From Capsulimonas corticalis (GTDB lineage Bacteria > Armatimonadota > Armatimonadia > Armatimonadales > Capsulimonadaceae), in NCBI RefSeq assembly GCF_003574315.2, contig NZ_AP025739.1:4464001-4528000 (forward strand): DNA of 64,000 nt, written 5' to 3'. The notes under the pieces were generated by a model. The model saw nothing but the letters and a program-made list of their open reading frames with translations. It was not told where the DNA came from and did not search any database. This document shows, one piece after another, positions 47,122-52,367 of this stretch. The position numbers and the translations under genes are program-made. Within the stretch, counting starts at the first letter, position 1; the number at the start of each line of letters is the position of its first letter.

Positions 47122-50100
47122 TTAATGTTTGGATGCGAACGCCTGGGCGACGATGGCGCGGCAGACAGGCCCGGCGGCGCTGCGCCCGTGGCCGCCGTTT
47201 TCGATCACGCAGGAGAATGCGAGGGATGGGCGGTCGGCCGGGGCCGAGCCGATGAACCAGGAATGCGTCTGTTTGTCGCCCTGATCGTTCTGCGCGCTGC
47301 CGGTCTTGCCGGCGACGCTCACGGGAAGGCCGTCGAACACGCCGCGCGCGGTGCCGCCGGTGACGACGCCCGCGAGCATCCCCTGAAGCTGAGCGGCCTG
47401 ATCGACCGTAACCACGGTCGTCGCGCTCTGCGAGCTTGGCGATGTGGTGTGGAAGAACGTCGCCGGGATATGAATCCCGCCGTTCGCAACGGTCTGCGCC
47501 ACTTCCGCCATCTCCGTCGGCGTCGTCCGCACCGTCCCTTGACCGTAAGAGCAGTCCGGCAGGTCTTCGCCCAGCGCCTTGAGTTTCGGGAAGTAAGCAA
47601 GGCCGAAGCCCTCGGTCGCCGTCTTCTCCAGTGCTTCCGGGCCCACGAGCAGGCCGAGGCGCGCGAAGTAGATATTGCAGGAGACGGCGAGCGCCTTCGC
47701 CATATCGGTTGAGCCGTGCGCGGAGAACTCTGCGTCGTCGGTGATACGCCGCCGCGAGTATCGCACGCCGTCATAGCGCCATTTGACGTTGTACTCCGTG
47801 TGTGGGCAGTTGACGATGGTGTTTTGCAGCCCTTGCTGGAACGCCGCCGAGGCCGTCACGACTTTGAATGTCGATCCCGGAGGGTAGAGGCCGCGCACCG
47901 AACGGTCGAGCAGCGTTGAGCGTTTGTCTTTATCCGCCAGCAGATCCGCCATGCCGTCGCCGGTGATCGTCGCGGGGTCGAACGTTGGCGAACTCACGGC
48001 GGCGAGCACCTCGCCCGTCGCGACATCTATCGCGACCGCCGCCCCCCGGTCCTTGGATTGTCCGGTGCGCCGGTCGCGTACCGAGTGGGCGCTGTCGATC
48101 AGCGCCTTGGACGCCGCCTGCTGGAGATCGAGATCGATCGAGAGGCGGATGTCTTCTCCCTTCATCTGTGACGCGCCCGGCAGATAACGCAGTCGGTAGG
48201 GCGTGAGCAGATCGGCGTAAGTCGCATAGCCGCGCAGTTCGGTATTGCGCCCGAGGGCGTTGGTCGAGCTGTGGTCGCCTTCGACGGCGTAGAGTAAGTG
48301 CGCGCAGGCGGGGCCGCCGGGGTAAAGCCGCATGCGTCCGTCGGGATTGAGCAGGCCCGTTGCCTGAGAATACTGGCCGGGCTTGGCGCTTACGGCCAGC
48401 ACGCGGCCATTGCGGTCGAAGATCGTTCCGCGCGGGATCGCGTCGGCGTAGTTTTTCAGGCGTGGGTTAATATGATCGCGCGTCACCAGATCGCGGTCCG
48501 GCGTTCGGATCGCGCGGCCAGCGATCGCCGTGTCGGCGATCCCCTGGATGTAGAACAAACGGAACACGCCGACGCCGATCAGCAGATACGCCGCCATGCC
48601 GACCGTCACCAGCCGCGCCGAGCGCACCCAGGCGCTTGAGGCGACGTCCGTAACATCCGGGGGCAGCGTCTTCGCCGAAAGATGCAGCAGCAGACCGATC
48701 GAGAAGAAGTTGACGACCAGAGAAGATGTGCCAAAGGACACAAAAGGCAGTGTGATGCCGGTGAGCGGCAGCAATCCCGTGACGCCGCCGACGATGATCA
48801 TTGTCTGGAGCGTCAAAAGCGTGGTGAGGCCCGCCGCCAAGAGCCGGTCAAAGTGCGTGACGGCGTGCATCGCGATTCGAAAGCCGCGTACGCAGATTAA
48901 TACGTAAACGATCAGGATGCAGAGCGCGCCGATCAGTCCCATCTCCTCGCCGATGGAAGCGAAGATGAGATCGGAGCCGCCGCGCGGGATCATCCCCGGA
49001 TTGCCCATCCCAAGCCCGCTGCCGAAGACGCCGCCTGTCGCCATGCCCCAGAGCCCCTGGCCCAGTTGTGCGCCCTTGGCGTCCGTATTCACCCAGGGGT
49101 TAAGCCACATCGTTACGCGCGTCGCGAAGAACCCGAGGTGGATGTGGTATCCGACGAAGCCCGCGACCAGAAGCAGAGCGCCGCCGATGAGGGGGTAGAT
49201 CTTACGCTGCGTCGCAAGGTAAACAATCGTCAGGAAGGTTCCGAAGAGCAGCACAGCCGGCCCGAGGTCCTTCATCGCGACGAACAGCAGCAGCACGCTG
49301 GCGTAGATAATCGCGAGCGGCCCGAAATCCTGTACGCGGGGCAGGGGAGCGATGGGGCTGTCCAGCGCGTCGGGCCGCTGCGTCAGGTACGACACGACAA
49401 ATAAGACCAGCAAGACCTTGATGACTTCGACCGGTTCAAATCCGAACAGCTCCAGGTGAACTCCCCCCGGTCCTGAGCCGACCAGGATTTGCAGCACCAT
49501 CAGCACGATCGCCGCCACGGCGTAGACATATTGATAGCGTCGCAGGATAATTCGGGAAAATGGCTTGAGGATCGGGACCGCCAGCGCGATCATTCCGTAA
49601 AGCGCGACGCCGCGCACTTGCCCCAGAAAAGAGAATGTATCGCGAAAGGGATCTTTCACGGTATAAACCATCATCAGACCAACGCCGCAGAGCAGTTCGA
49701 TCAAGGGCAGCAGGAACGGGTCGGCGCTGGGAGCCATTTTGCGCAAGTAGACGTGCGCCAGGAAAAAGGCAAAGAAAAAGAAAGCGATCCCGCGCCAGTA
49801 TTCGCTGGAGACATCGGACTTGCCGCGCACGACCAGCTGGTCGTCGTCGAGGACGATATTCGTCCCGCGAAACAGCTTGAGATGGCGCATCTGCGATGTC
49901 GAGCCGAAGGCGTGTCCACGCAGCTTTTGCCGGGCGTCCACGACTTGCTGCGCGATGGCCGCCGGCAGGTTCAGGGCGCGGGCAAGCTGCTGGGCCGTCG
50001 CCTGATTGACATTGACCACATTGGCGGGAACGGGCGTCGTGAGCAGCTTGCTGCTGAAGAGTAAAAGAAAGCCAAGGGCGAGCACTGCCGACATCGGCAG

Positions 50101-50145
50101 CAGGAGGGCGAGCTCCAATCCTCGGCGTGAAAATTTTTGATGCAT
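47122..50145 (-). CDS. HhH + SEDS (FtsW/RodA) glycosyltransferase + class B PBP transpeptidase fusion
   Basis: 1007 residues. TM1 (~10-31), then a ComEA-like helix-hairpin-helix segment (~43-95: VNVNQATAQQLARAL, HAFGSTSQMRHLKLF) facing outside; SEDS core ~115-495 with the FtsW/RodA block EPVEVIKVLLVLF and SDLIFASIGEE (D392 at the position of the RodA catalytic Asp); a linker TM (~510-530); PBP transpeptidase ~560-1005 with IPRGTIFDRNG, SxxK STFK (S758), SxN SCN (822-824), KTG (947-949). Both activities look intact: glycan polymerisation and crosslinking in one chain. Likely leaderless (promoter 50150-50158). Confidence 0.93.
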   Translation of the reverse strand: MHQKFSRRGLELALLLPMSAVLALGFLLLFSSKLLTTPVPANVVNVNQATAQQLARALNLPAAIAQQVVDARQKLRGHAFGSTSQMRHLKLFRGTNIVLDDDQLVVRGKSDVSSEYWRGIAFFFFAFFLAHVYLRKMAPSADPFLLPLIELLCGVGLMMVYTVKDPFRDTFSFLGQVRGVALYGMIALAVPILKPFSRIILRRYQYVYAVAAIVLMVLQILVGSGPGGVHLELFGFEPVEVIKVLLVLFVVSYLTQRPDALDSPIAPLPRVQDFGPLAIIYASVLLLFVAMKDLGPAVLLFGTFLTIVYLATQRKIYPLIGGALLLVAGFVGYHIHLGFFATRVTMWLNPWVNTDAKGAQLGQGLWGMATGGVFGSGLGMGNPGMIPRGGSDLIFASIGEEMGLIGALCILIVYVLICVRGFRIAMHAVTHFDRLLAAGLTTLLTLQTMIIVGGVTGLLPLTGITLPFVSFGTSSLVVNFFSIGLLLHLSAKTLPPDVTDVASSAWVRSARLVTVGMAAYLLIGVGVFRLFYIQGIADTAIAGRAIRTPDRDLVTRDHINPRLKNYADAIPRGTIFDRNGRVLAVSAKPGQYSQATGLLNPDGRMRLYPGGPACAHLLYAVEGDHSSTNALGRNTELRGYATYADLLTPYRLRYLPGASQMKGEDIRLSIDLDLQQAASKALIDSAHSVRDRRTGQSKDRGAAVAIDVATGEVLAAVSSPTFDPATITGDGMADLLADKDKRSTLLDRSVRGLYPPGSTFKVVTASAAFQQGLQNTIVNCPHTEYNVKWRYDGVRYSRRRITDDAEFSAHGSTDMAKALAVSCNIYFARLGLLVGPEALEKTATEGFGLAYFPKLKALGEDLPDCSYGQGTVRTTPTEMAEVAQTVANGGIHIPATFFHTTSPSSQSATTVVTVDQAAQLQGMLAGVVTGGTARGVFDGLPVSVAGKTGSAQNDQGDKQTHSWFIGSAPADRPSLAFSCVIENGGHGRSAAGPVCRAIVAQAFASKH

Positions 50146-50163
50146 GGGCAGTATAATACCCGT
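50146..50163. promoter_or_regulatory. Bidirectional core promoter between two leaderless genes
   Basis: Only 18 bp separate the two start codons. Plus strand: TATAAT (50152-50157), 6 bases, ATG of the LuxE-like gene. Minus strand: TATTAT (50158-50153), 7 bases, ATG of the SEDS-PBP gene. The two -10 boxes share the symmetric TATAATA. No ribosome site precedes either start, and -35 elements are weak on both sides. Confidence 0.7.
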
Positions 50164-51180
50164 ATGGACACCCTTGCGCGGAATATCGCCGCATTCATCG
50201 CCGAGGATCCTTCAGGGAGCACTGAGGATCCATTCAATACGCTGGCGCTGGAGCTGTTTGCCCGTCAGTATGAACGAAACGAAGTGTATCGCCGCCTGTG
50301 CGAGAGTTTAGACGTGACGCCGGGATCGATCGATCACTGGCGCATGATCCCGGCGACGCCGTCGCAGGCGTTCAAGCTCTTTACGCTGAGCTGCGCGCCG
50401 CCCGAGGAGGTCGTCTCGGTCTTTCACTCGTCGGGAACGACGCTGCGCGAGGCGGGAAAGCACTCCATGGATGCGGACGCGCTCGCGCTGTATGAAGCAA
50501 GCTTGGCGCATGGTTTTGCGCGGGGAATTCCGTCCGCGAACGGACTGCCGATCTGGGCGATGATGCCTGCGCCGGACGCCGCGCCGCATTCCTCGCTGTC
50601 CCATATGCTTGGCGCGCTGCGGGCGGAGCGGTTTTACTGGGATCGGGATTCCGAGCTGTCCTCGGACCTTGCGCGTGTCGAAAGGCCGATCGTACTCTTC
50701 GGCACGGCGTTCGCCTTTGTCGGCCTGTTCGATGCGTCCACGGACGCCTGGAGCCTGCCTCCGGGAAGCGTCGTCATAGAAACCGGCGGTTTCAAAGGGC
50801 GCACCCGCGAGGTGGCGCGCGAAGAGCTGTACGGTATGTTTCGGGATCGATTGGGCGTTCCAATCGAATCGTGTTACAGCGAATACGGCATGTCCGAGAT
50901 GGCGTCGCAGTTTTACAGCCGGGGACTGGATCCGGTCAAGCGCGGCCCCCACTGGGTGCGTACGGCGGCCATCGATCCGGTGACGGGCGCGGAGGCCCAA
51001 GCCGGGCAGCCTGGGCTTCTCACGCACTTCGATCTGGCGAATTTTAACTCGGTGATGGCGGTCCAGACGGAAGATATGGGGATTTTGGGAGCCGATGGGT
51101 TTACGCTGCGCGGCCGCGCGAGCGACACCGAGCTGCGCGGATGCTCGCTGACCGTGGAAGAATTATGGGCGCGACAGTAA
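50164..51180 (+). CDS. LuxE-like acyl-protein synthetase (AMP-forming)
   Basis: 338 residues. Adenylate-forming ligase related to LuxE, which loads fatty acids onto LuxC: VSVFHSSGTTLREAGKHSMD is the ATP loop, ESCYSEYGMSEMASQFY the adenylate motif, and TEDMGILGADGFTLRGRASD the C-terminal hinge motif. Start ATG 50164 is right behind the -10 box, so the mRNA should be leaderless. The LuxC-like gene begins inside its 3' end (16-base overlap). No luxD, luxAB or luciferase genes are visible. Confidence 0.88.
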   Translation: MDTLARNIAAFIAEDPSGSTEDPFNTLALELFARQYERNEVYRRLCESLDVTPGSIDHWRMIPATPSQAFKLFTLSCAPPEEVVSVFHSSGTTLREAGKHSMDADALALYEASLAHGFARGIPSANGLPIWAMMPAPDAAPHSSLSHMLGALRAERFYWDRDSELSSDLARVERPIVLFGTAFAFVGLFDASTDAWSLPPGSVVIETGGFKGRTREVAREELYGMFRDRLGVPIESCYSEYGMSEMASQFYSRGLDPVKRGPHWVRTAAIDPVTGAEAQAGQPGLLTHFDLANFNSVMAVQTEDMGILGADGFTLRGRASDTELRGCSLTVEELWARQ

Positions 51181-52367
51181 CTGATATCCGTGACGCCGCC
51201 GCCCGCTTGAGGACCGAGCGTGACGCCGTGCTGACCGGCATGACGTCGCTGGAGGTCGCGGAAGCGCTGAGCTTCGTCGCCGCGCGCTATCTGCGCGGCG
51301 AGAGCGACATCGCCCGGCGTCTGCAAAGTTTGAGCGAACCCTTTCCGTTCGCCATGGTTCGGCCCAGTCTGGACGCCCTCTTTGCATCCATGTCTTTAAC
51401 GTCATTGCGCGATCTGCAAAAAAATGAAGGCGTCATCGACACTCTTGGGTATGATCTGATAGGTCATGTCATTGCGGGGAATACGCCTTTGCTGGCGTGG
51501 ACCAGCGTGGCGCGCGCGCTGCTGGTCCGCAGCGCCTCTCTGGTGAAACTCCCCACGGGGCCGGCGGCGCGGTGGGGCGGCGCGTTTCCTCTGCTGCTTG
51601 CCGAAACGCATCCGGATCTCGCGCGCTGTGTCGAGATGCTGGAATGGGCTGGGGGAACGCGCGAGCTGGACGAAGCGCTTGCCCTGGAGACCGATTTCCT
51701 GGTGGCGTATGGCGATGACACCACCATTGAGCAGCTTCGGCGTTATCGTCCCGGAGCGCAGTTTTTGGGATACGGGCATCGTTTGTCGATGGCGATTGCG
51801 CTGTCGCTGCCGGATGCAATGTCGGCGGCGATGGACCTGGCGCGAGATGTGCTGACGTACGATCAGAGCGGGTGTCTGTCGCCGCATTCAATTTACGTCA
51901 TCGGCGATGTTTATGACGCCGACGACTTTGCCGGGCGGCTTTCCGACGCGCTGAAACGCACGTCGCTGGAGATGAACCTGGCGCCTGTGAACGTGGAGGC
52001 GGCCGCCCAGGTGAGGCGTCACCGGACACTGGCGCGTATGATGGGCGATCGCTTGTGGGAAGATCCACAGCTGCGATATACCGTGGTCCGGCCGCGCCGG
52101 CGGCAGTTCGCCGCATCGCCGACACACGGCGTGATCAACGTCCAATCGCTGTCGTCGATCGACATTTTGCCGGAGGCTCTCGCGGAAGTCGCGGGGGCGC
52201 TGCAAGGCTGTGCGATTGCGGCGCGCGGGGATATTCCGGCCGCGCTCCGGGAGATGCTGGCGAAGATGGGAATTTCTTATCTCTGCCGTCCCGGTCAGAT
52301 GCAGACGCCGCCGATTACCTGGCGGCAGAATGAAATCGACGTTTTGAAGTGTTTCACGGCGGCGTGA
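51165..52367 (+). CDS. LuxC-like acyl-CoA/acyl-protein reductase
   Basis: 400 residues. Aldehyde-dehydrogenase-like reductase with the LuxC active-site motif YDQSGCLSPHS (Cys237), an NADPH-binding central part (GHVIAGNTPLLAWTSVARAL), and LEMNLAPVNVEAAAQVRR. Reduces activated fatty acid to aldehyde. Start ATG 51165 with GTGGAAG ahead overlaps the LuxE-like gene, so the two are translationally coupled: a two-part fatty acid reductase. Confidence 0.88.
   Translation: MGATVTDIRDAAARLRTERDAVLTGMTSLEVAEALSFVAARYLRGESDIARRLQSLSEPFPFAMVRPSLDALFASMSLTSLRDLQKNEGVIDTLGYDLIGHVIAGNTPLLAWTSVARALLVRSASLVKLPTGPAARWGGAFPLLLAETHPDLARCVEMLEWAGGTRELDEALALETDFLVAYGDDTTIEQLRRYRPGAQFLGYGHRLSMAIALSLPDAMSAAMDLARDVLTYDQSGCLSPHSIYVIGDVYDADDFAGRLSDALKRTSLEMNLAPVNVEAAAQVRRHRTLARMMGDRLWEDPQLRYTVVRPRRRQFAASPTHGVINVQSLSSIDILPEALAEVAGALQGCAIAARGDIPAALREMLAKMGISYLCRPGQMQTPPITWRQNEIDVLKCFTAA

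Follow-up and report, generated by a model that had tools for sequence, protein, structure and literature searches.

The 18 bp between the start codons of a SEDS-PBP fusion gene on the minus strand and a LuxE-like gene (luxE) on the plus strand can, judging from the sequence, be regarded with good confidence as a compact and doubly leaderless form of the known bidirectional promoter with a symmetric -10 element. The gap occupies positions 50146..50163 of the window, i.e. the whole stretch of 64,000 nucleotides analysed, which corresponds to bases 4464001-4528000 of the 7.65-Mb single-contig genome. The segment 50143-50166 reads CAT GGGCAG TATAATA CCCGT ATG, with the minus start codon at 50143-50145, the luxE start codon at 50164-50166 and the predicted bidirectional core promoter (GGGCAGTATAATACCCGT) filling the space between them. 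A -10 element TATAAT for luxE (50152..50157, plus strand) lies 6 bp from the luxE ATG, and a -10 element TATTAT for the SEDS-PBP gene (50153..50158, minus strand), with one mismatch from the consensus at -9, lies 7 bp from the SEDS-PBP ATG. The distance between the start codons, the TATAATA in their midst and both spacers had been reported in the first-pass annotation of this DNA and are confirmed in the sequence. The gap is the shortest among the approximately 201 divergent pairs called in 2.06 Mb of the genome, a ranking made with a simple gene caller and with the starts of this pair set by hand.

The plus-strand gene (50164..51180) encodes a LuxE-like acyl-protein synthetase of 338 amino acids (LuxE, E 3.5e-13), and is followed in the same direction by a LuxC-like acyl-CoA reductase identified by domain match (51141..52367), the start of which, as called, overlaps luxE. 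A role of the LuxE-LuxC pair in fatty-acid reduction in this organism is a guess from the domains. The minus-strand gene (47122..50145) encodes 1007 amino acids with the Pfam domains FTSW_RODA_SPOVE (E 5e-59) and Transpeptidase (E 4e-44). It is a natural FtsW/RodA and transpeptidase fusion with long fusion relatives across the phylum, and its N-terminus carries a weak helix-hairpin-helix-like stretch under the Pfam cut-off. A search placed a Capsulimonas MAG and further MAGs of Armatimonadota as the nearest named relatives.

The assignment of both start codons is central to the geometry. Within the first 60 codons of luxE the other candidates are only a TTG/ATG at -27/-24 and a GTG at +120 and +150, while the next candidate of the SEDS-PBP gene is a TTG at +27, followed by an ATG within the first hydrophobic stretch; such internal candidates are late or implausible and offer no better alternative start. 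The gene-caller starts at TTG 50119 and ATG 50140 were discarded, as neither is conserved in the only other Capsulimonas genome compared (L007/G001; proteins 87% and 77% identical), where they read CTA and ACG, respectively. This congener does retain the in-frame TTG at 50137, but no Shine-Dalgarno sequence accompanies it. No Shine-Dalgarno sequence precedes the luxE ATG or the SEDS-PBP ATG either, in agreement with the earlier claim that ribosome sites are lacking on both sides.

Bidirectional promoters with a symmetric -10 (Warman et al.) have, in the passages of PMC12825309 and PMC10268837 that describe them, reciprocal -7T and -11A positions and starts most commonly 18 bp apart, the class being defined by mapped transcripts in both directions separated by 7-25 bp. 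The present gap resembles these promoters in its single near-symmetric -10, its reciprocal -7T/-11A and its 18-bp spacing of predicted starts (50164 and 50146). For the plus direction the -7T is at 50157 and the -11A at 50153, and for the minus direction the T is at 50153 and the A at 50157; such reciprocal pairing would let one element serve both strands. A -18T, frequent but not obligatory in the known class, is present in the minus direction, where position 50164 is an A on the plus strand and is itself the A of the luxE ATG, and is absent in the plus direction (G at 50146). At 50146, the predicted minus +1, the minus-strand base is C, and initiation may instead shift to 50145, the A of the ATG.

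From the geometry, its conservation and the genome-wide leaderless motif, all read from the DNA, we infer transcription, start sites, translation route and sigma factor as follows. The gap would function as a single -35-less core promoter, in which RNA polymerase with the housekeeping sigma factor would bind the near-palindromic TATAATA in either orientation, the -7T and -11A of one direction pairing with the -11A and -7T of the other. Plus transcription would begin with the A of the luxE start codon (A50164), and minus transcription at 50146 or 50145, one base before or at the SEDS-PBP ATG. Both mRNAs would lack a usable leader and depend on leaderless translation. Use of one orientation would exclude the other at any moment, which probably does not couple the genes functionally, and the arrangement looks like a product of genome compaction.

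Leaderless genes of the known kind carry a -10 a few bp before the start codon, lack a Shine-Dalgarno sequence and do not require a -35 (Zheng 2011, PMC3160421; Deinococcus-Thermus 2025, PMC12340547), and the genes discussed here share the adjacent -10 and the lack of a Shine-Dalgarno sequence. Translation of leaderless mRNAs is reported to resist kasugamycin (PMC5230787). On the luxE side, TAYAAT is located exactly 6 bp before the start in 6/6 genomes of the family with a visible start (TATAAT in the window, L007 and L004; TACAAT in L003, L005 and L024), the start codon being ATG or GTG, and TAAAAT was read by eye at the same distance in two sister-family genomes (L009, L010). Across 2.06 Mb of the genome, the spacer between TAYAAT and start codon peaks at 6 bp (12 of 1369 called genes vs about one at most other spacers), although the peak of Shine-Dalgarno sequences is larger and dominant. 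Among the 18 other genes with TAYAAT at spacers of 5-7 bp, -14G is found in 16 and no -35 signal was detected. This conserved hexamer, together with the genome-wide 6-bp peak and the missing -35, makes luxE, this half being taken alone, very probably a member of a leaderless minority class, even if its plus side lacks the -14G of most leaderless genes of the genome. The consensus of the class is RGGTAYAAT-N6-ATG, with examples at genome coordinates 4409874, 5972488 and 6157949 (G000). In the wider phylum the initiation of luxE is mixed (a -10 farther upstream in G029, and AGGAGG before the ATG, L022, on the same contig as L006), and leaderless luxE is not universal in the phylum.

The SEDS-PBP side is less firmly supported as leaderless. 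Since any TATAATA yields a minus hexamer by symmetry, this half depends on the position of the ATG, on the -13G/-14G which it shares with the leaderless set of the genome, and on orthologues with spacers of 10-11 bp. The minus strand GGGTATTAT, the 7-bp spacer and the ATG are the same in both Capsulimonas genomes. In two other genera the -10 of the SEDS-PBP gene is TAYAAT, namely GGTATAAT located 10 bp before the start in G005, where the gene is away from luxE, and GGTACAAT 11 bp before the start in G003; given a -10-to-start distance of 7 nt, these spacers correspond to predicted leaders of 0-5 nt. G002 has a correctly oriented -10 directly next to that of luxE (TATTATACC TGCG GGGTACAAT), and an insert with an inverted repeat parts it from the SEDS-PBP gene. 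Between the two genes, the segment L003:3725-3960 of this genome carries short tandem repeats as well as an inverted repeat resembling a MITE (CCGAGTGGTTGAAAACCACTCGCTAGG and its complement).

These features also bear on the possibility that luxE alone uses the -10 and is leaderless, the minus hexamer being a by-product of symmetry and the SEDS-PBP gene being transcribed from inside luxE with a leader devoid of a Shine-Dalgarno sequence. In random 18-bp gaps of local composition, -10-like hexamers 5-8 bp from both ends are expected at 2.6e-4 per gap and the plus hexamer alone at 1.7e-3, and because the motif is symmetric about 15% of the latter bring the minus one by chance. Together with the orthologous spacers of 10-11 rather than 7 bp and the repeat insert that separates the SEDS-PBP gene from its nearest -10 in G002, this gives the reading some footing. 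However, no -35/-10 promoter-like site was found in 49700-50600, which includes the 5' end of luxE, and the -13G/-14G and the unchanged minus side in the congener likewise speak against it, so that transcription of the SEDS-PBP gene from within luxE is considered unlikely. The first-pass proposal of a shared symmetric -10 with leaderless genes both ways is supported by the 6/6 conservation at luxE, the 6-bp peak, the lack of a -35/-10 pair nearby and the 18-bp geometry, the SEDS-PBP half being the weaker one (7 bp in two genomes, 10-11 bp in two genera); the mechanism as a whole is probably right.

The two genes form a divergent pair in four genomes of three genera, the only genera of the family in which they were seen to adjoin. 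In the congener the gap is again 18 bp, with 17/18 bases the same and the single substitution outside the -10, a level of conservation that does not clearly exceed the 89% of the flanks. G003 has a 53-bp gap containing two separate -10s, and in G002 the gap is about 270 bp. In a fourth genus (G005) luxE and the SEDS-PBP gene lie on different contigs, and the latter has a co-directional upstream neighbour. Adjacency with a shared promoter is accordingly not kept in all lineages holding both genes, as the loci are separate in G005 and the spacing differs in G002 and G003. On their sequences these genomes may represent three states, namely two -10s that are independent, two that abut and one merged element, with no order of events implied.

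A search of the genome for the pattern CAT-N-TATWATA-N-ATG gave 9 places vs 2 for the reversed pattern, of which only one, the gap between SEDS-PBP and luxE, has real genes on both sides; the remaining strict matches were checked and lack them. Across the order (19 genomes) there are 39 occurrences of the pattern vs 5 of the reversed control, and the opposite orientation, ATG..CAT, occurs 20 times, 4 of these at the same palindromic sites, the enrichment over this control being only about twofold. The sister family holds all eight of the further sites that are flanked by an open gene on each side, and in five of the eight both sides have Pfam domains: SBP_bac_1/kynureninase, DUF1684/GH127 (L212:1501-1523), sortilin-like/epimerase, SWIM/FAD oxidoreductase and DUF1684/DUF5695 (L216:1501-1524). 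The DUF1684 promoter position is kept in two species of one genus, where the partner is GH127 in one and DUF5695 in the other. From these sequences the architecture would be present between at least five, and probably eight, unrelated gene pairs of the sister family. Three sites of G004 (L221, L223, L224) with long ORFs on both sides were left out of the count, as one side looked like an antisense ORF. Plasmid stretches of Deinococcota contained too few close divergent pairs to serve as a comparison.

Recurrence with unrelated partners suggests a compact architecture of general occurrence and speaks against a functional link between particular genes. The divergent arrangement in four genomes of three genera might otherwise be taken to reflect selection on a shared promoter to coordinate cell-wall synthesis with acyl reduction, much as the first-pass annotation had envisaged one regulatory unit for wall synthesis and fatty acid reduction. 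Such coordination appears improbable, given the separate contigs and the co-directional neighbour in G005, the different spacings in G002 and G003, with separate -10s in the latter, the recurrence of the architecture with unrelated partners and the different DUF1684 partners in two congeners, and the functional part of the earlier proposal is not supported. A palindrome serving mainly as a repressor operator for both genes, with transcripts starting elsewhere, would fit the 9-bp palindrome GTATAATAC about a central A in the gap and the longer palindromes at a few sister-family sites, such as GCGGGTATWATACCCGC, but is very improbable, as the genera share the fixed 6-bp luxE spacing but not the palindrome, the motif is the leaderless -10 of the genome and the partner genes are functionally unrelated.

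The compact, doubly leaderless promoter favoured here is composed of known parts. It differs from the promoters in the passages of PMC12825309 and PMC10268837 (E. coli, Salmonella) in that both predicted starts fall at start codons, with the consequence that the whole intergenic region would be promoter; the word 'leaderless' is absent from the portion of PMC12825309 consulted. Unlike the leaderless genes of PMC3160421 and PMC12340547, those of this genome are a minority class (strict motif matches in about 1-2% of called genes), and here one element is predicted to serve two genes. In Mycobacterium tuberculosis, the divergently oriented genes prpD and Rv1129c both have transcript starts that map to their start codons, according to a passage in PMC3898074. 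Both pairs are divergent and leaderless on both sides (mapped there, predicted here), but this passage is silent on sharing of a -10, whereas the present pair has a single -10 in an 18-bp gap. No description of a single -10 serving two leaderless genes was found in the open-access literature, and the combination of these parts as a single unit, present repeatedly between unrelated genes of this order, seems undescribed. The chances are about even that, at least in this order of Armatimonadota, it constitutes a recurrent module, in which a symmetric -35-less -10 makes up the whole intergenic region between two leaderless genes, arises repeatedly between unrelated genes and has the A of one start codon supply the opposite -18T. 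If true, the arrangement would be near the smallest possible for two genes, with a promoter of approximately 18 bp for both and no leaders, and its recurrence between unrelated pairs in one order favours compaction over co-regulation. Since mutations in the common -10 should affect the two genes together, the arrangement would lend itself to asking whether symmetric promoters are under selection or only tolerated, and how translation without leaders makes such compaction possible. Many occurrences of CAT-N-TATWATA-N-ATG vs few controls are also seen in other Armatimonadota, namely in G070 (11), G242 (14) and the small genomes of family f30 (4-5), counted as a sequence pattern irrespective of gene context.
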